Of a DNA stretch of 64,000 nt, positions 14,493-26,414 are shown in pieces. Below the pieces are notes generated by a model that ran no database searches, was not told where the DNA came from, and worked only from the letters and a program-made list of their open reading frames with translations. Position 1 is the stretch's first letter, and each line of letters starts with the position of its first letter. The stretch is from Pseudomonas abietaniphila (GTDB lineage: Bacteria; Pseudomonadota; Gammaproteobacteria; Pseudomonadales; Pseudomonadaceae), in contig NZ_CP155619.1 in assembly GCF_039697315.1 (NCBI RefSeq), forward strand, positions 124,001 through 188,000, in the 5' to 3' direction. The position numbers and the translations under genes were made by a program.

Positions 14493-14816
14493 CGGGTGAC
14501 CGGTGCCGTCGGCGAGGTGGGCCAACTGCCTCGCCGTCACCTTCTTTGCTGCAACCTGCCGTCACCGTGACATTCGGGTGTCACCGACACCAACCCGCCA
14601 GCTGAATGTCTTTTGCCCTCAAGGGCTTGCAAACGCTGCCGCACCGCCCTCTCTAAATCTGCTTGCCACCTAAAGATCTTGCTCCTAGACTCCGATGCAT
14701 GCGTATGCAAGACAGGCTTCCGCAGCTGTGTCTTGCGCCCCGCCACGGCGGGAGGAAGCTAGCCAAAGGGCGTCTGGATCTGCCCGGATAAGAATAAAAA
14801 AAAGCAGGTGATGACG
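14493..14816. other. Promoter region of the ABC-transporter/catabolic operon
   Basis: About 324 bp. A hairpin CGGCGAGG...CCTCGCCG at 14510-14536 may be a weak terminator of the hydrolase gene. The palindromic operator at 14695-14710 is described separately. Nothing else is seen. Confidence 0.5.
14695..14710. promoter_or_regulatory. Candidate operator, copy 1 (ATGCATGCGTATGCAA)
   Basis: This 16-bp near-palindrome is, read on the other strand, TTGCATACGCATGCAT. It matches 15 of 16 bases of the element at 24454-24469 upstream of the oppositely directed dehydrogenase operon. It lies 107-122 bp before the ABC ATPase start. The form is like operators of GntR/LacI-type repressors. No GntR or LacI gene is found in the window. 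Confidence 0.65.
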
Positions 14817-16358
14817 ATGAATGCGTCCGTACACCAGGAACAACCGATCCTGCAGGTCAATGCCCTGCGTAAGTCCTACGGCCCCACCCATGCATTGGGC
14901 GGCGTCAGCTTCCAGATTTTCGCTGGAGAGGTGCACGCCTTGCTCGGTGAGAACGGCGCCGGCAAGTCGACACTGGTCAAGATTCTCACCGGGGTCGTCG
15001 CACCCAACGACGGAACCATGCAGTTCGCCGGTAGCGCTTATGCGCCCCGAACCATTCTGCAGGCGCGCGCCGCTGGCATCACGACGGCTTTTCAAGAACT
15101 CAGCCTGCTGACCAACCTGACCGTTGCGGAAAACCTGGCCCTGCCCAGGCAGACCAAAGGTTGGGGACGGTTGAACTCAAAGGCGAAGAACTGCGTTGCA
15201 GCCACCGCCACGCTGCTGCGCTACGGCCTTTCCGAGCTCAACCCCAATACCCGGGTGAGCGAACTGTCGCTCGCAGACCGACAGCGTCTGGAGATCGTTC
15301 GCGCGCTCAGCCATTCGCCTTCACTGCTGATTCTGGATGAGCCCACCGCGGTACTGCCCTCGACCGATTGGCTGTTCGATCTGATTCGCAAGGAAACCGC
15401 CAAAGGGACGGCGGTCCTTTACATCTCCCATCGCCTCAACGAGATCCGCCAGCTGTGCAGCCGCGCCACGGTCCTGCGCAGTGGTTGCAGCATCGAAACC
15501 ACTGACCTGCAGAACACCGACGACGCGCGCATCTTCGAGATGATGGTCGGTCAGCGCATGGCATCGACCCTGAAGTCGTCCCACGTCCCGGCCGTTTCGT
15601 CACAGCCCCCCCGATTCCAGGTCACTGGACTGGACGCCGGTATGATCAAAGACCTGAGCTTTAAACTGCTTCCCGGTCAGATCGTGGGGGTGGCGGGGCT
15701 GGACGGTCAGGGTCAGTGCGACCTGTTTCACGCGCTGTATGGCTTGATTCCCAAGCGCGCCGGCACGCTGGAAGTCGATGGTAAAACCGTGACGATCAAT
15801 TCGCCTTCCGGAGCGCTTGCGGCAGGTATTCAAGTCGCGCTCTTGCCCGAGGAGCGCAAGACGCAAGGGGTTTTCGGTGATCTGCCGGTCCGGGCGAACA
15901 TGGCGATCTCAGCGCTCAACCGCATCGGCTTGCTCGGCTTCACCACACGCAAAAGCGAGCGGCAACTGGCCAAGGGTGTCGCCAGCGAGGTTGATCTTCA
16001 GGAGCGTTACCTGGATTTCCAGATCAGCGAATTGTCGGGCGGCAACCAGCAAAAAGCACTGCTCGGGCGCGTCCTGCTCACTCATGCCAATACCCTGCTG
16101 TTATTTGACCCGACGCGCGGGGTCGATGTGGGCACCAAGCAGGCCCTTTACCTTGCTATCGAGGCGTATGCCCGAAACGGCGGCGCGGTGCTGCTCTATT
16201 CTTCTGAACTCGCGGAACTGGTGCGATTGAGCGATCGTTGCCTGGTCATTTACGAAGGCCGCATCGCCGCGGAACTGGAAGGTGAGGCGATCGAAGAAAC
16301 CCGACTCGTGGCGGCCGCCACGGGCAACCGTCGACACGCGGAAGGAGAAGCCGCATGA
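14817..16358 (+). CDS. Sugar ABC transporter ATP-binding protein (RbsA/MglA class)
   Basis: The ~513-residue protein has two ABC domains in tandem, as in ribose-type importers. Domain 1 has a good Walker A (GENGAGKST) and Walker B (LLILDEPTA) but a poor signature (LSLADRQ). Domain 2 has a degenerate Walker A (GLDGQGQCD) and a good signature (LSGGNQQKALLGR). GTG 14808, ATG 14811 and ATG 14817 are in frame; GCAGG at 14804-14808 fits 14817 best. It overlaps the first permease gene by 4 bp (ATGA). It energises uptake for the catabolic enzymes encoded downstream. Confidence 0.93.
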   Translation: MNASVHQEQPILQVNALRKSYGPTHALGGVSFQIFAGEVHALLGENGAGKSTLVKILTGVVAPNDGTMQFAGSAYAPRTILQARAAGITTAFQELSLLTNLTVAENLALPRQTKGWGRLNSKAKNCVAATATLLRYGLSELNPNTRVSELSLADRQRLEIVRALSHSPSLLILDEPTAVLPSTDWLFDLIRKETAKGTAVLYISHRLNEIRQLCSRATVLRSGCSIETTDLQNTDDARIFEMMVGQRMASTLKSSHVPAVSSQPPRFQVTGLDAGMIKDLSFKLLPGQIVGVAGLDGQGQCDLFHALYGLIPKRAGTLEVDGKTVTINSPSGALAAGIQVALLPEERKTQGVFGDLPVRANMAISALNRIGLLGFTTRKSERQLAKGVASEVDLQERYLDFQISELSGGNQQKALLGRVLLTHANTLLLFDPTRGVDVGTKQALYLAIEAYARNGGAVLLYSSELAELVRLSDRCLVIYEGRIAAELEGEAIEETRLVAAATGNRRHAEGEAA

Positions 16359-17317
16359 CAAAGCCGTCTTCTTACCTGACCGCACTCTCCCGAAGCGGCG
16401 CGGGCACCGCTGCCCTGCTCTACCTTGTGCTCTTCGTGGCCTACGCGAGCGTTGAACGCAGTGCGCTGAGCGTGTCGGCGTTCAGCGACCTGATCAACAA
16501 CGCCTCGCCGCTGGCGATCGCGGCCGCCGGCGGCACGCTGATCGTGCTGTTGCGCAGTTTCGACCTGTCGGTGGCCGGTGTCATTTCGTTGGTCAATGTG
16601 ATCCTGGCGAGCTACCCGCTGGAAGACGCCACTGGCGCGGGCATCAGCCTCTGCCTGGCGTTGGCGATTGGCGCCCTGGTTGGCCTGGTGAATGGCGTGC
16701 TGGTCGCCTATGGCGGGTTCCAGTCGATTGCCGTGACGCTGGCCACGATGATCATGACCGGCGGCCTGGCGCTGGTGATCCTTGATGCACCCGGTGGGTC
16801 GGTCGCCGAATGGTTGAGCGAGACGCTGACCGATACGTTAGGGCCGGTGCCGATTTCAGGCCTGGTATTGCTGGCGGTGGTGATCGTGTGGGCGGTGATT
16901 CGAAAAACCGACTTCGGCGTGTCGCTGTACGCGGTCGGCCAGGACGAACACGCCGCTGCCCTGTCTGGCATAAAAGTACAGCGCACGCGCTGCCTGGCGT
17001 TTGTCATTGCAGGGGCGCTGTATGGCCTGAGCGGCTACATGCTCTCGGCGCAAACCGCCACCGGCAACCCGACGGCGGGCAATTCACTGTTGCTGCTGAC
17101 CTTTGCTGCGATCGCGTTGGGCGGCACCTCGTTTCGAGGCGGCACGGGTGGCCTGACCGGCAGCATCATCGGCGCCGCCAGTCTGATGCTGCTGCAGAAG
17201 CTACTGTTCTCCATTGGGGTGCAGTCGTTCTACATCGGTTTGCTTCAAGGTGTGGTCATGATCCTCGCCGTCAGCCTGATGAACGTGGGCGAATGGTTCA
17301 ACGTGAGGAAAGCCTGA
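16355..17317 (+). CDS. Sugar ABC transporter permease 1 (RbsC class)
   Basis: The 320-residue inner-membrane protein has 8-10 hydrophobic segments and the permease signature of the ribose/xylose class (INNASPLAIAAAGGTLIVLL and ALGGTSFRGGTGGLTGSIIG). Translationally coupled to the ATPase gene by a 4-bp overlap and followed after 1 nt by the second permease gene, so the channel is probably a heterodimer. Confidence 0.92.
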   Translation: MTKPSSYLTALSRSGAGTAALLYLVLFVAYASVERSALSVSAFSDLINNASPLAIAAAGGTLIVLLRSFDLSVAGVISLVNVILASYPLEDATGAGISLCLALAIGALVGLVNGVLVAYGGFQSIAVTLATMIMTGGLALVILDAPGGSVAEWLSETLTDTLGPVPISGLVLLAVVIVWAVIRKTDFGVSLYAVGQDEHAAALSGIKVQRTRCLAFVIAGALYGLSGYMLSAQTATGNPTAGNSLLLLTFAAIALGGTSFRGGTGGLTGSIIGAASLMLLQKLLFSIGVQSFYIGLLQGVVMILAVSLMNVGEWFNVRKA

Positions 17318-17318
17318 G

Positions 17319-18380
17319 ATGAGCAGCGTGCAGATCAAGTCGCCCGATTCCGCGCAAGCCGACGCCGTGAACGACGCCCCTCCCGACACCGCCACTGCGG
17401 ACACTCGCAAATCGTCGCGGCTGTCCCGTGAAACGCTGAACATCGCCGGTGTGTTCCTGCTCTGCGTGCTGGCCATGCTCGCCGCCCGCTGGATCAACCC
17501 GAACGCCGGTGGTTATCAGCAGCTCGAAACGATTCTGGTGCTCTGCTCCTTTCTGGTGGTCGTGGCATTTGGTCAGGGGCTCGTGGTGTTGATCGGCGGC
17601 CTGGACCTGTCCATTCCCTCAGTGATCACCCTGGGTGGCATTCTGACCGCCGTGTGGGTCGGCGCGGACGGCGGCATCGTTAAAACCTGCGCCGTGCTTG
17701 CGGCCTGTGCCGGTGTCGGGGTGTTGAACGGTCTGGGAATCGGCATCTTCAAGGTCCCCGCCTTCATCATGACCCTGGCCATGGGCATCATCGTCTACAG
17801 CCTGTGCCTGGGCGCAACCGGCGGCTCTCCCAACGGTGTTTCGCCAAAAGCCCTGACCTGGCTCATGAGTGGTCGCGCGGCAGGCATTCCGGTCATCGTG
17901 ATCTTCACGGTCATCGGGGCGGTGATCGCTTACCTCGTGCAGTCGCGCACCCGTTTCGGCATCCGCTTGTACGCGATGGGTTCGAACCCGACGGCCGCCC
18001 GTTTTGCCGGGCTGCACACCCTGCGCCTGACCCTCATGACCTATGCCTTGTGCGGGCTGCTCGCGGGGGTGACCGGCATGCTGCTGGTCGGCTATTCCAA
18101 TGGCGCGACGTTGCGCATGGGCGAGCCGTATCTGCTGCCCTCGGTCGCGGCGGTGGTGATTGGCGGGTCCGCGATCAGCGGCGGGCGCGGCAGCTTTCTG
18201 GGCACCCTGGCCGGCGCGCTGTTGCTGACCATCCTGGACATGATCATTTCCAGCCTCGGTTTTTCCCAAGGCTGGCGAACCGTTATCTCCGGGGCAATCA
18301 TCCTGTTCGCCATCCTCCTTCAGCACGAAGGGGCGATGGATTATCTGCGTTCACTCAAAGGCCGCAACAGCACCACCTGA
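17319..18380 (+). CDS. Sugar ABC transporter permease 2 (RbsC class)
   Basis: The 353-residue protein starts with a cytosolic tail of about 40 residues rich in Asp, Ala and Ser, followed by multiple membrane segments and the class motif VVIGGSAISGGRGSFLGTLAG. The conserved FGIRLYAMGSNPTAARFAG block is typical of RbsC-like permeases. It starts 1 nt after the stop of permease 1. Confidence 0.92.
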   Translation: MSSVQIKSPDSAQADAVNDAPPDTATADTRKSSRLSRETLNIAGVFLLCVLAMLAARWINPNAGGYQQLETILVLCSFLVVVAFGQGLVVLIGGLDLSIPSVITLGGILTAVWVGADGGIVKTCAVLAACAGVGVLNGLGIGIFKVPAFIMTLAMGIIVYSLCLGATGGSPNGVSPKALTWLMSGRAAGIPVIVIFTVIGAVIAYLVQSRTRFGIRLYAMGSNPTAARFAGLHTLRLTLMTYALCGLLAGVTGMLLVGYSNGATLRMGEPYLLPSVAAVVIGGSAISGGRGSFLGTLAGALLLTILDMIISSLGFSQGWRTVISGAIILFAILLQHEGAMDYLRSLKGRNSTT

Positions 18381-18428
18381 ACCGCGTTCACCGCCACATT
18401 CACCGCTACTTACAACAACAAAAGGCGC

Positions 18429-19685
18429 ATGAGAATGAAGAGAGCACTGCAGTTAAACGCTTCACCCCTGCATAAAAAGATGCTGGCGATGCTCGCGGGC
18501 GTCATCGCACCGCTGGTGATCGGCGGCGTGTCGATGCCCGCCCACGCCGCGCCGAAGGATCACTACATCGTGTACCTGAGCCTCAGTTACAGCGGCAACG
18601 CGTGGCAATCGGAGGCTGCGAATCTGGTCAAGGCACTTGCGAAGACCCCGCCGTACGACAAGATGGTCGAGCTGCGCGAGGTCATTTCGGGCACGGATGT
18701 TCAGGCGCAGATTTCGGCGTACGAGAGCATCATCGCTGCGGGCGCCGACGGTGTGGTCAGTTTCCCGGTCTCGCCCACGGCGTTGAATCGCACGGTCAAG
18801 CGCGGCTGTGAAAAAGGCACCCTCTTCTACATGTACGACGCCACGGTCACCGAACCTTGCGCGTACAACGTCAGTTACATCACCGCCGGTTTCGGTGAGA
18901 ACACGGCCCAGGCGCTGGTCAACGAGCTGCACGGCAAAGGCAAGATCTTCCTGAGCCGTGGCGTGCCGGGCAACTCGGTGGACAAGCGTCACTACGACGG
19001 CGCCATGAGCGTGTTCAAGAAATACCCCGGCATCCAGATCGTTGCCGAGTACTACGGCTATTGGGATGACCGCACCACGCAACAGGAAACCGCCAAGGCG
19101 CTCGCGGCCCATCCCGACGTGGAAGGCATCTGGGCCCAGGCCGGTGAGAATGGCGCGCTCAAGGCGTTGATTGCTGCCAATCACAAGCTGATCCCCATGA
19201 CTGGCGAAAACTCCAACGGTTTCCGGCTCGGACTGGCCAACCCCGACTTCCAAGCCAAGGGCCTTCGCGGCGTCTCTTCCGGTTCACCACCAGCTGCAGC
19301 CGGCCTGGCGTTCAAGCTGTTGATGGAACAGTTGCAGGGCAAACGCGACATGAAGGTGCACAACATCGAGTACGCCTTACCATGGGTTCCGGCGGACAAG
19401 GTGAAGGTCTGCGAGGGCGACAAGGTGACGTCCGAATGCAACGTACTGGCGGAAGGCAAGGTCCCCGACTCGTTCGTGACCGAGGTTTTCGACCCGGTCC
19501 TGTTGCCGGAAATCTCGCTGCAATCAGCAACCGATGGCACCCCGACACCGGGCGCGACCATTCAGCCCTTGCCAGAAGACGCTGCGCGGGCCGCCGCCAA
19601 CGAGCCCGGCATCAACTGCGCCAAGTGCGATGCGCCTCCCGGGCTCTATCACCTGACCAAGACCAAGGCATTTGACGCGCAATAA
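18429..19685 (+). CDS. Sugar ABC transporter substrate-binding protein with C-terminal CxxC tail
   Basis: The 418-residue protein has a signal peptide (positively charged start, hydrophobic core AMLAGVIAPLVIGG, cleavage near AHAAP) and the periplasmic-binding-protein fold of the ribose type (GADGVVSFPVSP, GIWAQAGENGAL). It is about 100 residues longer than RbsB. The extra C-terminal part ends with INCAKCDAPPGLYHLTK, where two Cys form a CxxC pair, suggesting a disulfide. The gene is 48 bp after the permeases. The ligand is unknown. Confidence 0.88.
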   Translation: MRMKRALQLNASPLHKKMLAMLAGVIAPLVIGGVSMPAHAAPKDHYIVYLSLSYSGNAWQSEAANLVKALAKTPPYDKMVELREVISGTDVQAQISAYESIIAAGADGVVSFPVSPTALNRTVKRGCEKGTLFYMYDATVTEPCAYNVSYITAGFGENTAQALVNELHGKGKIFLSRGVPGNSVDKRHYDGAMSVFKKYPGIQIVAEYYGYWDDRTTQQETAKALAAHPDVEGIWAQAGENGALKALIAANHKLIPMTGENSNGFRLGLANPDFQAKGLRGVSSGSPPAAAGLAFKLLMEQLQGKRDMKVHNIEYALPWVPADKVKVCEGDKVTSECNVLAEGKVPDSFVTEVFDPVLLPEISLQSATDGTPTPGATIQPLPEDAARAAANEPGINCAKCDAPPGLYHLTKTKAFDAQ

Positions 19686-19732
19686 CCGGACGATGGCCCG
19701 AGCATTCGGGCTCGGGCCACGGGAGCCTGCAC

Positions 19733-20302
19733 ATGACGTTACTGTTGAACTCCAGCCGTTTCGGGCTCACGGAACGGGCGTACAAACAGGTCGAACCGCG
19801 GATGTCGGCCGAACCCGGCGTCGGCGTGCGCATCGATGAATGGGTCTTCTATGCCGCGCGCATTCGTCCGCACTACGACCGCCTCAACGGCATCGTCGGC
19901 CAGCTCGCCGGGTTGCTGATTCTCGGGCAAGCCAGAAGCTGCTTCGAGGCGTACTACAACCTGGCCTCGACGCCTCTGGATCAGGTGGAGGAATGCCGCG
20001 ATGGCCTGCTGTCGATCCGCCCGCCTGCGCAGGCTGCCGGTCATCACCGGCATCTGTGCAAAGCCGCCGCGCAGGTCGAGGACATCGCGCGTTCATTGCG
20101 TCGTACGGTCAATTGCCCTGAGGAACTGAGGCTTGAAATCCCGCGTATGGTGACGGCGCTGGAAGCGACGTGCGCGATGCTCAGGTGCGCCGCCGACCCT
20201 GAAGTCAGGCTTCAAACCATCGATTTTGCGCAGGGCTGTGCCTGCTGTATCCCTTTGCAAGCACTTGATTCTTCTCAGCTCGACCTCCCTTTCACCCCAT
20301 AA
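19733..20302 (+). CDS. Protein of unknown function in the catabolic operon
   Basis: The 189-residue product has no signal peptide and no family I recognise. It looks mainly helical and contains six Cys in the last two thirds, including a CACC cluster (about 171-174). It is flanked closely on both sides (47 bp and 16 bp) by genes of the transporter and the lactonase-like enzyme, with consistent codon use, so it is very likely a true member of the operon. It could be an accessory or metal-binding protein; I cannot tell. Confidence 0.75.
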   Translation: MTLLLNSSRFGLTERAYKQVEPRMSAEPGVGVRIDEWVFYAARIRPHYDRLNGIVGQLAGLLILGQARSCFEAYYNLASTPLDQVEECRDGLLSIRPPAQAAGHHRHLCKAAAQVEDIARSLRRTVNCPEELRLEIPRMVTALEATCAMLRCAADPEVRLQTIDFAQGCACCIPLQALDSSQLDLPFTP

Positions 20303-20318
20303 AAACAACAGGTGATTT

Positions 20319-21236
20319 ATGTCAGGCAATGCTTATTCCATCTGGGTGCTCGAATACAGCGCCGTGATCAACTACCCGGTCAGCGGCATCATCTTCGGCG
20401 CGCATAACCAGGGCGTTCGCAAACTGCCGTACTGCTACGTCCTGATTCAGGGCCACGGCAAGAACATCCTCGTGGACGTGGGCTACAACAGCAAAGAATA
20501 CGGCGCCTATCTGGAGCAGAAATTCGGCGTCGGCAACTGGCATTCGCCCGCCACGGTGCTGGGCAATTGCGGCCTGACGCCTGAGGACATCGACACGGTC
20601 ATCCTGACTCACGCCCACTTCGACCATCTGGGCAACACCGATGCGTTTCCCAACGCGACGTTTTACATCCAGGAAAAAGAACTCGCCAAGTGGATCTGGG
20701 TGATGTCGCTGCCGCAGCGTCACCAGAACTGGATGATGATCGCCACCGACCCGTCCGACGTGCTGCGCGCCGTGAATCTGGTCAAGGACGGCCGACTGAA
20801 ATGCATCGACGGCGACGTCGCCGACTTTCTGCCAGGTATTGACCTGCACGTCGCCTACGACAGCCACACCTTTGCATCGATGTGGGTGCATGTGCGCAAC
20901 GACCTTGCGCGGGAATCCCAGGACTCGTGGGTGCTGGCGGGCGATCTGGTCTACAGCTATGACAACTTCCTCTCCGAGGCCCAGGTGGCGAACGGCGAGG
21001 TGCGGGGTGAGTTGGCGATCACGCCGGTGGGGCTCGCATCGGGCAGCCAGACCAATCTGGTGCTGGCGACCGAGCAAATGCTCAAGGTCGTCGACTACGA
21101 GCCTAAACGGCTGATCCCGATCCATGAAGAACGCTTGAAAGACGTATTTCCGTCAAGACTGACTGCCCAGGGACTCCAGGTGACAGAGATCTGCCTGGGC
21201 GATCAACAGACCTCAAAGGTGGCCAACAATGCATGA
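20319..21236 (+). CDS. Metallo-beta-lactamase-fold hydrolase, N-acyl-homoserine-lactonase-like
   Basis: The 305-residue cytosolic protein has the zinc-binding HxHxDH motif (His98, His100, Asp102, His103 in THAHFDHLGN), a further GDLVYSYDN region and a late His in LIPIHEERL. This matches the AHL-lactonase (AttM/AiiA-like) branch. In this operon, with a sugar importer and polyol/sugar-acid dehydrogenases, I infer hydrolysis of a sugar lactone rather than quorum quenching. Its end overlaps the start of the next gene by 8 bp. Confidence 0.85.
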   Translation: MSGNAYSIWVLEYSAVINYPVSGIIFGAHNQGVRKLPYCYVLIQGHGKNILVDVGYNSKEYGAYLEQKFGVGNWHSPATVLGNCGLTPEDIDTVILTHAHFDHLGNTDAFPNATFYIQEKELAKWIWVMSLPQRHQNWMMIATDPSDVLRAVNLVKDGRLKCIDGDVADFLPGIDLHVAYDSHTFASMWVHVRNDLARESQDSWVLAGDLVYSYDNFLSEAQVANGEVRGELAITPVGLASGSQTNLVLATEQMLKVVDYEPKRLIPIHEERLKDVFPSRLTAQGLQVTEICLGDQQTSKVANNA

Positions 21237-22191
21237 ACTTGACTCCCTGACCCAGGGCCGGCCCATTGCAATCGTCGGCGCGGGCCTGGTCGGCGCCGGC
21301 TGGGCACTGGTCTTTGCCCGGGCGGGACTCGCCGTTCGGATCTATGACGCAAACCCGGCGATTTCCAACGCCTCGGTCCCGTTGATCGCGCGGCAGATCG
21401 CAGACCTCACCGAGTTTGGCTTGTTGTCAGAACCTGCCGAGTCCATCCTCGCGCGCCTGACCGTGTGCGACACTTTGGAACAGGCCGTCAGCGGTGCATC
21501 GTATGTCCAGGAATCGATTCTGGAACGCACCGACGTCAAACGGGCGCTTATGCTTGAACTGGACGCCCTCGCCGGTCCCGACCTGATCATCGGGAGCTCC
21601 ACGTCGGGTATTCCCGCCTCGGCGTTCGCATCGGATTTGAGCATTTCTTCGCGGGTCATCATTGCTCATCCGGTCAACCCGCCGTACCTCGTGCCCGTGG
21701 TTGAAATCGTACCCTCGCCTGACACCTCGTCGTCGGTCATCGCCTTCACGGCGTCGCTGATGGAGGCCGTGGGCCAAAGCGTCGTGCATGTGCGCAAAGA
21801 GGTGCCCGGCTTCGTGCTCAATCGCCTTCAGGCGGTACTGCTGCGCGAGGCCTGGGCACTGGTGGAAGAAGGCGTCGCGACCTGTGAAGACATCGATAAA
21901 ACCGTGCGCGACGGGCTGGGCTGGCGTTGGTCGTTCATGGGGCCGTTCGAAACCATCGACCTGAATGCCGTCGGCGGTGTGGCTGATTATGCGCAACGTC
22001 TCGGGCCGCTCTATCGCGGCATTGCCGACTCGCGCTCCCACGAAGCAGAGTGGAGCCCTGAACTGATCAAGACCGTGGAAGACCAGCGCCGCACGTTTCT
22101 CGATTTCGGTGAACTGGAGACACGCCGTGCATGGCGCGACCGCCAGCTCATGGCGTTCAGCGCGCAGCGGCGCAAGACCGATCAGCGCTGA
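21229..22191 (+). CDS. 3-hydroxyacid dehydrogenase of the lambda-crystallin / L-gulonate 3-dehydrogenase type
   Basis: The 320-residue NAD-dependent dehydrogenase has the Rossmann motif GAGLVGAGWA, the catalytic-region AHPVNPPYLVPVVEIVP, GFVLNRLQAVLLREAW and MGPFETIDLN, and a C-terminal WRDRQLM block. The order and wording of these blocks match eukaryotic lambda-crystallin (L-gulonate 3-dehydrogenase) better than fatty-acid HADH. It would oxidise a 3-hydroxy group of a sugar acid. It is the last gene of the plus-strand operon and is followed by a perfect hairpin. Confidence 0.85.
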   Translation: MHELDSLTQGRPIAIVGAGLVGAGWALVFARAGLAVRIYDANPAISNASVPLIARQIADLTEFGLLSEPAESILARLTVCDTLEQAVSGASYVQESILERTDVKRALMLELDALAGPDLIIGSSTSGIPASAFASDLSISSRVIIAHPVNPPYLVPVVEIVPSPDTSSSVIAFTASLMEAVGQSVVHVRKEVPGFVLNRLQAVLLREAWALVEEGVATCEDIDKTVRDGLGWRWSFMGPFETIDLNAVGGVADYAQRLGPLYRGIADSRSHEAEWSPELIKTVEDQRRTFLDFGELETRRAWRDRQLMAFSAQRRKTDQR

Positions 22192-22211
22192 TGAACTGAC
22201 CCTCTAAAAGG

Positions 22212-22231
22212 CGGCCCTCACCTGAGGGCCG
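22212..22231. terminator. Hairpin between convergent operons
   Basis: CGGCCCTCA CC TGAGGGCCG is a perfect 9-bp stem with a 2-nt loop, preceded by AAAAGG and followed by TTTG. It sits between the two converging transcripts and may serve both. Confidence 0.75.
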
Positions 22232-22237
22232 TTTGCG

Positions 22238-23059
22238 TTATTGCGCGGTCCAGCCACCGTCGACTTTCAATGCGGTGCCGGTGACCATCCTTGCCGCAGG
22301 CCCTGCGAGGTACAACGCCCCGCCGACGATGTCTGCCATCGTTGCCATGTGCCCCATCGGAATCTTCGACACCAGAAAGGCTTCCTTCTCCGGCGTGTCG
22401 ACGATCTTGCGCACCATCGGCGTATCGACGAAGGTCGGGCACAGCGTGTTCACCCGGATGCCCTGCCCGGCCAGTTCGACCGCCATGGCCTTGGTCAGGC
22501 CTTCGATGGCGTGCTTGGTCATGCAGTACACCGTGCGATTAGGCGACCCGACGTGCCCCATCTGGGAAGACACATTGATGATGACTCCAGCGTCGGGCCC
22601 GGTATTAGCCAGCATCTTCTGCACCGCCGCTTGCGCGGTGACGAAGCACGCGCGCACGTTCAGGTTGAGCATGGTGTCCAGGTGTTCATCCGTGACCTCC
22701 AGCATAGGCTCGGGGTAATTAGTGCCCGCGTTGTTCACCAGGATGTCGAGCTGTGGGAGATCACCAATGACCGCCCGGATGGCGGTGCTGTCGGTGACAT
22801 CGCAGACCGCCGTCCGCACGCTGCCGCCTCGCCGGCGAATGACGTCCGCAACCTGATCCAGATTGGCTTGCGTTCGGGCGACCAGCACCAGATCGGCCCC
22901 TGCTGCACTGAAGGCCAGTGCAACGCCCGCGCCGATGCCGGAACCGGCGCCCGTGATCAGGGCGACCTTTCCATCAAGTCGAAAAGAAGGCATCCCCAAG
23001 GTGTCGAATTCGCCTGCCAAGTCACTGTCCTCTAGCGGTATAAGATTTTGCTCGCACAT
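22238..23059 (-). CDS. Short-chain dehydrogenase/reductase
   Basis: The 273-residue NAD(P)-dependent enzyme has the classical SDR motifs: TGAGSGIG (cofactor), NNAG, catalytic Ser in INVSSQ, YCMTK (YxxxK) and a C-terminal VDGGWTAQ. SDRs of this length oxidise a secondary alcohol of a sugar, polyol or hydroxyacid. A second start, ATG 22993 just before SFRLDGKVALITG, would remove 22 residues with no homology and may be the true one. It is 51 bp downstream of the HisD/HpsN-like gene in one operon. Confidence 0.88.
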   Translation of the reverse strand: MCEQNLIPLEDSDLAGEFDTLGMPSFRLDGKVALITGAGSGIGAGVALAFSAAGADLVLVARTQANLDQVADVIRRRGGSVRTAVCDVTDSTAIRAVIGDLPQLDILVNNAGTNYPEPMLEVTDEHLDTMLNLNVRACFVTAQAAVQKMLANTGPDAGVIINVSSQMGHVGSPNRTVYCMTKHAIEGLTKAMAVELAGQGIRVNTLCPTFVDTPMVRKIVDTPEKEAFLVSKIPMGHMATMADIVGGALYLAGPAARMVTGTALKVDGGWTAQ

Positions 23060-23110
23060 CCGGGCGGCTCGCCAAGGCGGCGTTACCGCCCTCCCGTCAC
23101 TTTTGCTGGC

Positions 23111-24418
23111 CTATTCGGCAATGCCCGCGTACGGCACCGCGCGCTTGCCGTAACGCCTTACACGAATATTGGCCTGCTCCCCATGGCCGGCAAACCCTTC
23201 CAGTGCACACAGCCGCGAACAGTACGCACCAATCATCGCTGACGCTTCGTCAGTCATGACTTTTTGATAGGTGCAGGTTTTCAGGAATTTACCGACCCAC
23301 AGCCCACCGGTATAGCGCGCGGCCTTGCGGGTCGGCAACGTGTGGTTGGTGCCGATGGCCTTGTCGCCGAAGGCCACGTTGGTGCGCGGCCCCAGGAATA
23401 GCGCGCCGTAGTTGCGCATGTTCGCCAGGAACCAGTCCGGGTCCCTGGTCATGACTTGTACATGCTCGAAAGCAAGGTCGTTGGCGATGGCGAGCATCTC
23501 TTCATCGCTGTCAGCCACGATGACCTCACCAAAGCTGTGCCAGGATTTGCGCGCGATATCGGCCGTTGGAAGGATCTCAAGCAAGCGCTCGATCTCAGCC
23601 AGTGTGTCGCGCGCCAGCGATTCGGACGTGGTCAGCAGCACCGCAGGCGAGTCGGGCCCGTGTTCTGCCTGGCCCAGCAAGTCTGTCGCGCACAGTTCGC
23701 CGTCCACGCTGTCGTCGGCAATCACCAGGGTTTCCGTCGGCCCGGCGAACAGATCAATGCCCACCCGACCAAAGAGTTGGCGTTTCGCCTCGGCCACGAA
23801 GGCGTTGCCGGGGCCAACCAGAATGTCGACAGGTTTGATGCTCTGGGTGCCTATCGCCATGGCGGCGACCGCCTGAATACCGCCCAGGCAGTAGATCTCG
23901 TCGGCACCAGCCATGTGCTGTGCAACAACGATTGCAGGCGCGGGTTTGCCGTTGAACGGTGGCGCGGCCGTCATGACGCGCGGCACGCCCGCCACCTTGG
24001 CGGTGATGATGGACATATGCGCGGACGCCAGCAGCGGGTATTTTCCGCCCGGCACGTAGCAGCCCGCAGCATTCACCGGCAGGTTTTTATGCCCAAGAAT
24101 GACGCCCGGCAGGGTCTCGATTTCGATGTCTTGAATACTGTCGCGCTGGTGTTGGGCAAAATTGCGCACCTGGGTTTGCGCGAACCGGATGTCTTCCAGA
24201 TCACGCGGCGTGAGTTGCGCGTAGCAGGCGTCGATCTCTTCGGAGGTCAGTCGATAGCTGTCACGGTCCATCTTGTCGAACTTGATGGCAAGCTCACGGA
24301 CCGCCACGTCACCACGGGCCTCCACGTCAGCGAGGATCGCTTCGACGGTGTCACGCACCTGGCGGTCGGCAGATTTTATCGCTTCTGCTTCGGCCCCCTT
24401 CTTTAGCCACTTAGCCAT
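23111..24418 (-). CDS. Histidinol-dehydrogenase-family enzyme (HpsN-like)
   Basis: The 435-residue zinc-dependent dehydrogenase keeps the HisD catalytic set: Gln and His in [12 protein letters not shown], the Glu-His pair in AFEHVQV, Asp in [14 protein letters not shown] and the late His in [11 protein letters not shown]. HisD oxidises an alcohol to an acid in two NAD-linked steps. The neighbours have nothing to do with histidine synthesis, and the sequence resembles sulfopropanediol 3-dehydrogenase (HpsN), a catabolic branch acting on a primary alcohol. The true substrate here is open. It is the first gene of a minus-strand operon, with the palindromic operator 36 bp before the start. Confidence 0.85.
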
Positions 24419-24453
24419 TTGCAGTCTCCAGAATTGTTATTGTTGATGGACGA

Positions 24454-24469
24454 TTGCATACGCATGCAA
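24454..24469. promoter_or_regulatory. Candidate operator, copy 2 (TTGCATACGCATGCAA)
   Basis: A 16-bp near-palindrome (14 of 16 positions symmetric) located 36-51 bp before the HpsN-like start codon. It differs by one base from the reverse complement of the element at 14695-14710 before the transporter operon. One regulator probably controls both outer promoters of the island. Confidence 0.7.
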
Positions 24470-24551
24470 ACTCATCATAGAAGACCGCAAAGGGTTTTGA
24501 AAGCCAAGGGTGCGAACGGTCGTGAAATGATTTCAGGCGCGACAGTCGCCG

Positions 24552-25508
24552 TCAGCCAATCACCTCGGCGTAAACGTTTCGATCAATGTTGGCACCCGAC
24601 AGGATCACGCCGACTTTTTTGCCTTTCATCGCCTCACCCTCCTGCATCAACGCCGCCAGCGCTGCAGCGCCTGCACCTTCAGCCAGATTGTGGGTGTCGC
24701 TGTAGTAAACGCGCATGGCCTCGGCAATCTCCTCGTCGCCGACCGAGACAACGCGTTGCGCGCCTTCTTTATAAATGGCAAATGCTTCCGGAATCGGATC
24801 GCGAACCGCCAACCCGTCGGCAAAAGTGTTCGCCGACGCGGTTTGGCGCACTACCCCCGCCTCGAACGATTGCCTGGCCGCGTCCGCTTCAGTGGACACC
24901 ACGCCGACCACGCGGGTGTTCAGCTGCAATGCGTCACGCACGGCGATCACCCCGCAAATGCCCGAACCGCAACCAATGGGCACATAGACGGTGTGCAGGT
25001 CGGGTGCGGCGGTGAACAACTCCAGCGCATACGTCGCCACACCTTTGACCAAAGCCGGGTGGTAAGGCGGCACCAGGAAAAGGTCATGGGTTTTCGCCAG
25101 TCGCGCGGCTTCTCCACGGGCTACGTCGAAGTCCCGGCCGTACTCCACGACTTCCCCACCAAAACCGCGCATGGCGTTGTTCTTCTCCACGGAATTACCA
25201 ACTGGCACCACGATCAACGCCCGCATCCCCGCTGCATGGGCCGCCATCGCGAGGCTCTGCCCGTGATTGCCGCGGGTGGCCGTGACGATGCCCTCAACGT
25301 CCGGGTGCGCGTGTTTCAGCCACTGCATGAAGGTGATACCACCGCGCACCTTGAAGGCCCCCGTAGGCGTGTGGTTTTCGTGTTTGACCCATACGGTGCA
25401 GCCCAGTCGTTCAGCGAGCAAAGGCCACGCGTATTGAGGCGTGGCAGGCATCACGCGGTACACCTGTCGGGCGGCATCTTCTAGGTCTTCACGAGTCAGT
25501 CGGTGCAT
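24552..25508 (-). CDS. PLP-dependent threonine/serine dehydratase family protein
   Basis: The 318-residue protein belongs to the fold-type II PLP enzymes. The Schiff-base Lys is in PTGAFKVRGG (about residue 53) and the phosphate-binding glycine loop is GCGSGICG. It is short and lacks the regulatory ACT domain, like catabolic threonine dehydratase or the EutB-type dehydratase of hydroxyectoine use; which applies is uncertain. The start ATG 25508 has a strong GGAGGAAA site; a longer frame from 25631 is unsupported. It is divergent from an AraC regulator 108 bp away that probably controls it. Confidence 0.85.
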   Translation of the reverse strand: MHRLTREDLEDAARQVYRVMPATPQYAWPLLAERLGCTVWVKHENHTPTGAFKVRGGITFMQWLKHAHPDVEGIVTATRGNHGQSLAMAAHAAGMRALIVVPVGNSVEKNNAMRGFGGEVVEYGRDFDVARGEAARLAKTHDLFLVPPYHPALVKGVATYALELFTAAPDLHTVYVPIGCGSGICGVIAVRDALQLNTRVVGVVSTEADAARQSFEAGVVRQTASANTFADGLAVRDPIPEAFAIYKEGAQRVVSVGDEEIAEAMRVYYSDTHNLAEGAGAAALAALMQEGEAMKGKKVGVILSGANIDRNVYAEVIG

Positions 25509-25616
25509 GGTTTCCTCCAGCGTTCTGTTTGGTCGCAGTCTAGGCACCGAGCGGTGTCGCAGGCTTTCAAAAAACCCACCTGACCTTTGGGCAGATTCTT
25601 GAGTACTATCGCGCTT

Positions 25617-26414
25617 ATGAGCCGTCCACACCGCGCCACCTCATCGCCCGTTGCCGAACCGGTCCGCCGCGTCGATGCGGGGTCGTGGACGATCGAATTG
25701 CTTCCGGCCTCCCCTTACGAAGCACGCTACGTCGCAACCCAGTCCAGCGTCGGTTTTGCGTTCGACAGTCAGCGGGGTACACACGCCATTGGCAGCGACC
25801 ACCTCCGTCCGTTCGCTGCCGTGCCCAACGGCCTGGCGTTTGTGCCGGCGGGTTGCGACGTGTTTTCAGCGTCGCCCGACGGCGGTGAATACCTGTTGCT
25901 CAAACGCAACGACGGGGGGGCGTTGATCGGCGACCAAGCGTTCAACAACCTGGTCGACGCTCAGGCCATTCGCCTAGCACTCCGTATGCGCAATGCTTTG
26001 TTGCGTGCATCGGTCAATGATGACTGGGAGGCCTGGGCCATTGCCCTTACGGAACGGGCCATTCAGTCCCCCTCAAGCTTCCCTGCATCAAGTTCGGCAA
26101 TGACCAGTAAGCGATTACGTTTACTCGATGAGTACATCGACTCAGGGCTTGATCGCCCTTTGAGCGTTCAAACCATGGCAAATCTGCTGGGATTGTCCGA
26201 GGGCTACTTCATGCGCGCCTTTACCCAGGCGACCGGGAAAAGCCCCCACAGCTACCTCATCGACCGCCGCGTAGCCCGCGCCCGCGCACTGCTGCGCGAC
26301 GCCTCCGTCAGCGTCGCGGACATCGCACACGCGTGCGGCTTTTCCTCACAGGCACACCTCGCGACGACCTTCAGGCAGCGGCTGGGTGTGAGTCCGTCGC
26401 AATTGCGGGGGTGA
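25617..26414 (+). CDS. AraC-family transcriptional regulator
   Basis: The 265-residue protein has an N-terminal cupin-like sensing part and a C-terminal AraC domain with two helix-turn-helices (MANLLGLSEGYFMRAF and IAHACGFSSQAHLATTFRQ). ATG 25617 is used; an upstream TTG at 25587 is in frame but less likely. It is divergently arranged with the PLP dehydratase and may sense an amino acid. Confidence 0.88.
   Translation: MSRPHRATSSPVAEPVRRVDAGSWTIELLPASPYEARYVATQSSVGFAFDSQRGTHAIGSDHLRPFAAVPNGLAFVPAGCDVFSASPDGGEYLLLKRNDGGALIGDQAFNNLVDAQAIRLALRMRNALLRASVNDDWEAWAIALTERAIQSPSSFPASSSAMTSKRLRLLDEYIDSGLDRPLSVQTMANLLGLSEGYFMRAFTQATGKSPHSYLIDRRVARARALLRDASVSVADIAHACGFSSQAHLATTFRQRLGVSPSQLRG

Follow-up and report, generated by a model that had tools for sequence, protein, structure and literature searches.

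Two converging operons and a distant LacI block in Pseudomonas abietaniphila: a likely shared pathway for a four-carbon sugar compound

Do two operons that run towards each other in the genome of Pseudomonas abietaniphila, each headed by nearly the same 16-bp palindrome, serve a single catabolic pathway, and which compound would feed it? The question is raised by a stretch of 64,000 nucleotides (contig NZ_CP155619.1, positions 124,001 to 188,000; hereafter the window), in which an original prediction, made from the letters alone, had joined a ribose-class ATP-binding cassette (ABC) importer, an unknown 189-residue protein (UNK), a lactonase-type metallo-beta-lactamase-fold enzyme (MBL), a lambda-crystallin-like dehydrogenase (LCRY), a short-chain dehydrogenase (SDR) and a HisD/HpsN-like alcohol-to-acid dehydrogenase (HISD). 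These gene families were all borne out by Pfam and NCBIfam matches and by solved relatives (Table 1), their homologues being named histidinol dehydrogenase, acyl-CoA dehydrogenase and N-acyl homoserine lactone (AHL) lactonase in databases. The analysis presented here indicates that both runs, together with a distant block around a LacI-family gene, are likely to form one undescribed pathway for a four-carbon sugar compound, for example a lactone.

Inspection of the sequence places both 16-mers exactly where they had been reported, ATGCATGCGTATGCAA ahead of the plus-strand run (14808-22191) and TTGCATACGCATGCAA ahead of the minus-strand run converging on it (24418-22238), the reverse complement of the latter, TTGCATGCGTATGCAA, differing from the former by one base. 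When searched with the pattern TTGCATRYRYATGCAA at up to one mismatch, the window holds these two sites only (0.01 expected, and 0 of 100 dinucleotide shuffles reach two). A scan of positions 14500-24800 for sigma70-like promoters also returned only two matches, each ending 3 nt (plus strand) or 4 nt (minus strand) before a palindrome and reading into the operon behind it, in line with the claim that the palindromes mark the outer promoters; two matches being close to the shuffle mean of 2.5, it is this matched geometry, and not the count, that is notable. The arrangement recurs in other Pseudomonas loci, with TAGACT followed by the palindrome 5' of the ATPase gene in L025 and L026 (one-mismatch sites in both), and TATGATGA followed by the palindrome 5' of HISD in L026. 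An even palindrome with a CG centre, lying 5' of the regulated genes, is a feature of local LacI-type regulons; as stated in a published survey, CG-centred even palindromes are the rule for LacI regulators and lie mostly at -140 to -30 (PMC4052901).

Table 1. Features of the two converging operons, with positions in the window.
Feature	Position	Strand	Remarks
Sigma70-like promoter, transport/lactonase operon	14663..14691	+	TTGCCA-17-TAGACT
Operator 1	14695..14710		begins 3 nt past the -10 element
CUT2 (ribose-class) ABC importer ATPase	14808..16358 (start codon uncertain)	+	two ABC_tran stretches
ABC permease 1	16355..17317	+	PF02653
ABC permease 2	17319..18380	+	PF02653
Periplasmic binding protein	18429..19685	+	PF13407; best solved relatives 4pe6, 4rs3 and 5hko, all ABC binding proteins
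UNK, 189 aa	19733..20302	+	no Pfam/NCBIfam match at E 0.001; predicted four-helix bundle
MBL, metallo-beta-lactamase-fold lactonase-type enzyme	20319..21236	+	PF00753
LCRY, lambda-crystallin-like 3-hydroxyacid dehydrogenase	21229..22191	+	PF02737/PF00725; 8-nt overlap with MBL
SDR, short-chain dehydrogenase	22238..23059	-	PF13561; tail-to-tail with LCRY
HISD, HisD/HpsN-like alcohol-to-acid dehydrogenase	23111..24418	-	PF00815; solved relatives 8v35, 8wwe
Operator 2	24454..24469		4 nt past the -10 element of the HISD-SDR operon
Sigma70-like promoter, HISD-SDR operon	24474..24501	-	TTCAAA-16-TATGAT

In the whole genome (a single contig of 6.55 Mb) three sites fall within one mismatch, namely the two window operators and C1:5021643. 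The third is a perfect palindrome, TTGCATACGTATGCAA, located between a second HISD copy, 83% identical to that of the window, and a divergent LacI-family gene (PF00356); no promoter-like match was given there by the same sigma70-like scan. A regulator gene with a matching site, which the original prediction had proposed to look for, is thus found 4.9 Mb from the window operons along the contig. Behind HISD copy 2 lies the gene of a 463-residue membrane protein, 34% identical to a Chromohalobacter permease (L033) that weakly passes the GntP model PF02447 (26.5 bits, cut-off 22.5). Were the palindrome a chance repeat, the two runs would be independent operons: nine other places of the genome match it at two mismatches, and the shuffle mean scaled to the genome gives about one site within one mismatch, so that the site at 14695 taken by itself is unremarkable and its position is what is notable. 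Against such a coincidence, which we find scarcely credible, stand the sites being promoter-adjacent on both sides, kept in relatives and present at a LacI gene, and reversed-pattern controls that gave none among the matches listed.

The two runs also occur together in other genomes, mostly as one block, as expected if they belong together. Scanning named genomes with an alignment of MBL gave 141 relatives, the best 80 of which were kept, and 53 of these 80 loci extend at least 8 kb before and at least 5 kb after MBL. HISD is carried by 39 of the 53 (a proportion in which this type is over-represented, because the query was built from two HISD-type loci), and these 39 contain, in turn, LacI in 39, LCRY in 38, UNK in 37, and the importer ATPase and SDR in 36 each, with SDR counted from 28% identity and LacI as any match. 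Two kinds of SDR appear among the loci, about 42-84% and 31-36% identical to that of the window. Such blocks are met repeatedly in Pseudomonas as well as in rhizobial, Halomonas-type and Burkholderia-type genomes, and in proteobacteria other than Pseudomonas the set usually forms a single block. In L010 (G277), a match of the UNK query made before the neighbourhoods were viewed, and left out of the counts as a duplicate of L085 (Vreelandella subterranea), all ten genes form one run: ATPase, permeases, binding protein, HISD, LacI, UNK, MBL, LCRY and SDR. Pseudomonas viridiflava (L026) likewise has the whole set in one place; the genes from ATPase to LCRY run towards those for SDR, permease and HISD, and LacI is divergent. 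The importer is missing from three HISD loci, of which L036 has a permease 64% identical to the 463-residue protein, L033 the 34%-identical one, and L102 neither.

Within the genus the palindrome is not widespread, its exact form occurring in 10 of 398 genomes drawn from it, with none for the reversed pattern among the matches listed. Outside P. abietaniphila itself (G000), eight of nine sites lie at a HISD/LacI pair and one (L110) is unrelated; in L112 another gene sits between the site and HISD. Nine genomes chosen for an exact site at HISD/LacI were then searched with a relaxed pattern, itself shaped using the sites of the SDR-LCRY loci of G359 and G375, and 15 distinct places resulted: the nine selected sites, five at the window operators or at SDR/LCRY of G375 and G359, and an unrelated one (G546, L167). 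Both G359 and G375 possess LacI, HISD and the permease, and carry LCRY elsewhere in the genome (83-85% identical), tail-to-tail with SDR; immediately 5' of SDR and of LCRY are sites that deviate at one to three positions, four over the two loci and none elsewhere in them. A third 19-kb locus, L145, with a 44% LCRY relative, shows no operator-like site. SDR and LCRY are likewise tail-to-tail in the window, where LCRY is preceded by importer, UNK and MBL, and SDR by HISD. At E 1e-30 MBL is found in one of the nine genomes, the own one, and thus in neither G359 nor G375.

Three further observations concern HISD and its surroundings. A block adjoining the permease beside HISD copy 2 (L005:12887-16767), kept in G359 and G375, encodes a D-2-hydroxyacid dehydrogenase, an SDR, a FAH-like protein and an AraC-type one, and has no palindrome within two mismatches in the whole-genome scan. 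In two genus genomes, a member of the HISD subfamily (65-66% identical) accompanies a PotD-like protein and acetolactate-synthase-like enzymes, another HISD route (L122 tested; L123 similar by eye). HISD and LacI also appear with an SDR, an alpha/beta hydrolase, a HpcH/HpaI aldolase and an amidohydrolase that may replace the lactonase (L125 tested; L126 and L127 similar by eye).

Considering (i) the shared rare palindromes, (ii) the site at HISD/LacI, (iii) the operator-like sites before SDR and LCRY in relatives, and (iv) the single block found elsewhere, the genes look like one regulon, and the claim that the two runs belong together stands, given the rarity of the palindrome and the co-occurrence of the set; of the two outcomes that the original prediction had named as refuting it, a 16-mer scattered over unrelated genes and operons that do not co-occur, neither was seen. 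With medium confidence we propose that this predicted regulon serves the uptake and oxidation of a four-carbon sugar compound, a tetronolactone or one of its relatives. In it, the LacI protein would act as a repressor that blocks the promoter adjoining each palindrome.

The compound is pointed to mainly by neighbouring genes in relatives. A recount of recurring neighbours followed the kinase, aldolase-type and DeoR-type families, several other listed families looking like wrong-frame open reading frames. A gene for a DUF1537-type acid-sugar kinase lies near 18 of the 39 HISD-type loci, and near 0 of 7 loci of the iron-containing alcohol dehydrogenase (Fe-ADH) type, 0 of 2 of the GMC type and 1 of 5 others (L032). 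In L065, L074, L092 and L095, tblastn located OtnK-like and OtnC-like genes before or after the block on the same strand, with OtnK of L074 starting 40 nt past the SDR match; L032, which has importer, UNK, MBL and LCRY and lacks HISD, carries OtnK and OtnC on the other strand. The L095 pair passes the models for 3-oxo-tetronate kinase (560.2, cut-off 350) and 3-oxo-tetronate 4-phosphate decarboxylase (305.6, cut-off 250). Near 15 of the 39 HISD-type loci there is, moreover, a 353-residue kinase-like protein with SBD_N and NBD_C domains (for instance L092:14308-15369), which falls short of D-threonate and 3-oxo-tetronate kinases in length and of their cut-offs in score. Between the window operators neither OtnK nor OtnC is found; the own genome has both over cut-off at C1:2744922-2746813, in a separate complete L-threonate operon that also encodes a DeoR-type regulator, a symporter of the gluconate type, L-threonate dehydrogenase (473.7, cut-off 350) and 2-oxo-tetronate isomerase (406.4, cut-off 325). 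The three of the nine genomes that have LCRY (G000, G359 and G375) are also the three in which OtnK and OtnC exceed their cut-offs.

These genes beside the blocks, together with the kinship of LCRY to L-gulonate 3-dehydrogenase, lead to the prediction that LCRY converts a tetronate to 3-oxo-tetronate, MBL supplying the tetronate from its 1,4-lactone, which is a gamma-butyrolactone bearing hydroxyl groups. LCRY shares with lambda-crystallin, which is an L-gulonate 3-dehydrogenase, the two-domain fold (3HCDH_N and 3HCDH), scores 415.6 bits for NF004783 (cut-off 347), has 3ado (lambda-crystallin) and 3f3s as best solved relatives, and conserves an H-x11-E pair, the residues of which (H147, E159) are present in at least 97% of the 52 sequences; it differs in that its gene lies in a bacterial operon and meets an SDR gene tail-to-tail, both under the same operator, and in its predicted substrate, a tetronate. 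The proposed route would begin with the importer, in which the parts of a CUT2 system are all present (tandem-ABC ATPase, two BPD_transp_2 permeases and a Peripla_BP_4 binding protein) and whose ATPase stays below every sugar-specific NCBIfam cut-off shown; it may bring in a neutral lactone or polyol. MBL, with UNK as partner, would open erythrono- or threonolactone to the tetronate, LCRY would oxidise C3 by analogy with L-gulonate 3-dehydrogenase, and OtnK/OtnC, found beside the cluster in several relatives and here in the separate threonate operon, would give dihydroxyacetone phosphate and CO2. HISD would act at the terminal CH2OH to turn the corresponding four-carbon alcohol or sugar into an acid feeding the same pool, a role as acid maker that suits a sugar-class importer, and SDR may act on a secondary or anomeric hydroxyl.

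The known tetronate route enters through a 2-dehydrogenase and the isomerase OtnI. With the L-threonate and D-erythronate systems (OtnI, OtnK, OtnC), the present set has in common the OtnK/OtnC neighbours of the five loci named above and a predicted shared intermediate, 3-oxo-tetronate; unlike them, it has a LacI-type operator and a CUT2 importer, and its enzymes include a lactonase and members of the HisD and lambda-crystallin types. Of the outline first proposed (uptake, alcohol-to-acid oxidation, lactone opening and 3-oxidation), a polyol or sugar acid still fits, narrowed to four-carbon acid sugars by the neighbours in relatives, and the sulfo-sugar is not supported.

HisD and HpsN each convert a CH2OH group next to an N- or O-bearing carbon into an acid. 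HISD could instead be an HpsN acting on 2,3-dihydroxypropane-1-sulfonate (DHPS) or another sulfonate, the resulting sulfolactate being cleaved or excreted. Its best solved matches are indeed two DHPS dehydrogenases, 8v35 and 8wwe, and like the hpsNOP system the window shows a HisD-fold dehydrogenase with further dehydrogenases alongside, in which Q250, H253, E318, H319, D352, H359, E407 and H412 are kept, residues presumed to have the Zn-binding and catalytic roles they have in HisD. Identity is, however, 46% and 48%, and the likely pocket positions 134, 360, 374 and 376 read H, T, W and G in the cluster as against Y/I, V, S and H in both DHPS enzymes, a difference found in all 69 HISD sequences compared (both copies of this genome included), which side with the cluster in T360, W374 and G376; positions 360, 374 and 376 would be those that read the substrate. 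A check for enzymes using sulfolactate covered Xsc and SuyB: the genome has no Xsc over cut-off, and its two PF04295 proteins, of 517 and 518 residues, are not SuyB-sized, their length being, we assume, that of altronate/galactarate dehydratases. The lactonase would have no role for DHPS, and neither it nor the lambda-crystallin-type enzyme has a counterpart in hpsNOP. A sulfonate substrate is thus very improbable, and this part of the original prediction was not upheld. HpsN converts (R)-DHPS into (R)-sulfolactate (PMC10507020).

A larger sugar under the same regulon was also weighed, in which MBL would open a pentono- or hexonolactone, LCRY would oxidise C3 in the manner of L-gulonate metabolism, and HISD would act on the terminal alcohol. 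It would agree with lambda-crystallin being the closest solved family of LCRY, with SDR lying barely over the cut-off of a glucose 1-dehydrogenase subfamily (215.2 bits for NF005559, cut-off 215), with the two dehydratase-sized PF04295 proteins of the own genome, and with the mandelate-racemase-type gene that precedes the block in L010/L085 and L088. On the contrary, the families that pass their cut-offs beside the cluster are C4-specific, and in L010 the mandelate-racemase-type gene lies upstream of an operator-like site, so that this explanation appears rather unlikely.

A four-carbon alternative under the same regulon ends in malate. Here the lactone would be 3-hydroxy-gamma-butyrolactone, and its opening would yield 3,4-dihydroxybutanoate, the carboxylate counterpart of DHPS; HISD would oxidise this acid to malate, with LCRY and SDR swapping the C3 epimers. 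HpsO and HpsP are known to interconvert the epimers of DHPS. By the Cahn-Ingold-Prelog rules L-histidinol, (R)-DHPS (the form named above for HpsN) and (S)-3,4-dihydroxybutanoate share one arrangement, which gives L-malate. This route would also account for the absence of any further pathway gene between the window operators, and for six genomes with HISD and LacI and without LCRY, MBL or an over-cut-off OtnK. It would leave without a role, however, the OtnK/OtnC and DUF1537 kinase genes that neighbour the cluster. Because these stand beside many blocks, tetronates are favoured as the lead, and the malate route is regarded as improbable for the window; in genomes without LCRY and MBL, nonetheless, HISD may work on an acid, for example 3,4-dihydroxybutanoate to malate.

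Several observations speak against a tetronate regulon as proposed here. Six of the nine site genomes (G493, G586, G530, G546, G535 and G351) lack MBL (E 1e-30) and LCRY (E 1e-60), the permease adjoining HISD all the same in G493, G586 and G546, and L102 has HISD without LCRY; the retention of HISD and LacI in those six indicates that HISD is useful in their absence, which suits a diacid product better than a feed into 3-oxo-tetronate. A kinase of the DUF1537 type is missing from the stretch seen in 21 of the 39 HISD-type loci, the 353-residue kinase reaches 121.6 of 450 bits for its best model (D-threonate kinase), and the family models were applied to the L092 and L095 proteins only. The own L-threonate operon has no palindrome within three mismatches over 17 kb, OtnK/OtnC of both G000 and G359 belonging to L-threonate-type operons of their own without the palindrome, and the match of OtnK/OtnC with LCRY in three of nine genomes may be shared ancestry, since G000, G359 and G375 look like close kin. 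Among 45 loci inspected, the TGCAnnCGnnTGCA dyad precedes the ATPase gene in 10, or in 9 of 44 once the duplicate contig is left out, so that most distant relatives do not keep the operator. The own 463-residue permease has no Pfam match, PF02447 (GntP) included, and MBL reaches no lactonase equivalog cut-off, its best scores being 42.6 of 425 bits for YtnP and 32.7 of 390 for AttM.

MBL itself has the metal ligands of AiiA and BlcC (HxHxDH, H, D and H) and a Tyr three residues after the Asp, to which we assign the role it has in AiiA; H98, H100, D102, H103, H183, D209, Y212 and H269 are each present in at least 97% of 82 sequences, and the enzyme is 82-86% identical in three Pseudomonas contigs. 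Such a conserved AiiA-type site, together with homologues named 'N-acyl homoserine lactonase family protein' in the annotated plasmid records listed, could suggest an AHL lactonase engaged in quorum quenching. MBL falls, however, below the AHL-lactonase cut-offs, those names are automatic labels, and importer, HISD, LCRY and acid-sugar kinases would have no place in such a route; we therefore attach very little weight to it.

Of the 79 loci in which this can be judged, 76 have UNK directly 5' of MBL; of those that do not, L090 and L091 carry in its position an open reading frame of 185 residues without a match. A protein search with the UNK alignment (7995 candidates scored) gave 106 proteins; all lack Pfam domains, and those with names are all hypothetical or uncharacterized. 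Across the 66 rows of the alignment C169 never varies and C172 hardly does, the consensus starting with H-x3-C and ending with DFSxACCxC; the window copy reads CACC and lacks the N-terminal H-x3-C motif. Its AlphaFold2 model is a four-helix bundle (mean pLDDT 80.2) with both ends of low confidence and the C169/C172 pair near the C-terminus, and fold searches name no relative.

The pair also occurs outside HISD-type loci. Among 14 loci of type B, Fe-ADH is present in 11 and succinic semialdehyde dehydrogenase (SSADH) in 6; in L050 both adjoin UNK-MBL, with SSADH passing its equivalog cut-off (859.3 bits, cut-off 828) and Fe-ADH passing none. In L028, UNK-MBL accompanies an aldehyde dehydrogenase, a GMC oxidoreductase and CoA enzymes for which mostly itaconate and mesaconate models score best, all below cut-off, and an Agrobacterium plasmid carries annotated SSADH, GMC enzyme and sugar ABC genes beside the pair. 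From these contexts MBL is read as a gamma-lactonase. One of the closest known systems is that of blcABC (attKLM of Agrobacterium), in which gamma-butyrolactone is turned into 4-hydroxybutyrate and then succinic semialdehyde (PMC5924552). As there, an MBL-fold lactonase would feed the oxidation of the freed alcohol, and UNK-MBL relatives lie beside Fe-ADH and SSADH; in contrast to blcABC, the window has neither of these dehydrogenases, has the UNK partner, and encodes an MBL far from the AttM cut-off.

Tentatively, UNK and MBL may constitute a new two-gene lactonase module that plugs into different gamma-lactone oxidations, ending in succinate through Fe-ADH/SSADH, in itaconate or mesaconate through CoA enzymes, and here in C4 sugars. 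The small helical, Cys-bearing UNK could then be, with the same reserve, a subunit of the hydrolase or its metal loader. On this still speculative joint reading HISD would make an acid from a four-carbon alcohol, the module would open its lactone, and LCRY, as a tetronate 3-dehydrogenase, would give 3-oxo-tetronate directly; the window might thus hold a new entry to the tetronate pathway that bypasses the 2-dehydrogenase and isomerase.

Other occurrences of the pair are recorded as such. The L028 run in P. marginalis (L028:9392-20582) comprises UNK-MBL, GMC, aldehyde dehydrogenase, two CaiB, MaoC, permease and CitE homologues, and may be a route from alpha-methylene-gamma-butyrolactone (tulipalin-like) to itaconate. 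In beta-proteobacterial loci the UNK-MBL run includes a bacteriorhodopsin-family gene and a flotillin gene (L042:3143-3844, PF01036, tested; a similar 233-residue gene at L050:3129-3830). A contig of Edaphobacillus (Bacillota) bears UNK-MBL with TTGCATACGTATTCAA 71 bp 5' of UNK (L100:9370-10867), by transfer, contamination or chance. An MBL relative is encoded in 21 plasmid records, 16 predicted to be conjugative (Rhizobium, Bradyrhizobium, Sinorhizobium, Mesorhizobium, Agrobacterium and others), and none of the three plasmid regions with MBL that were viewed is of the HISD type. As for the window itself, just outside operator 2 lie genes for a pyridoxal-phosphate-dependent enzyme (PF00291, 24552-25631, minus strand) and an AraC-type regulator (25587-26414, plus strand), for which the window scan gave no operator of their own at up to one mismatch.

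A literature search, judged from its results and not from full texts, gave no description of this gene set or its chemistry. LacI regulons, blcABC, HpsN and tetronate pathways are of known kinds, and what is new is their combination, the HISD subfamily and the UNK partner. The proposal offers a complete, testable regulon, with regulator, operators, importer, permease and enzymes, for a pathway that recurs across genera. If the proposal is true, the HisD and lambda-crystallin families would gain new substrates, and the unannotated UNK family would become testable as a lactonase partner.

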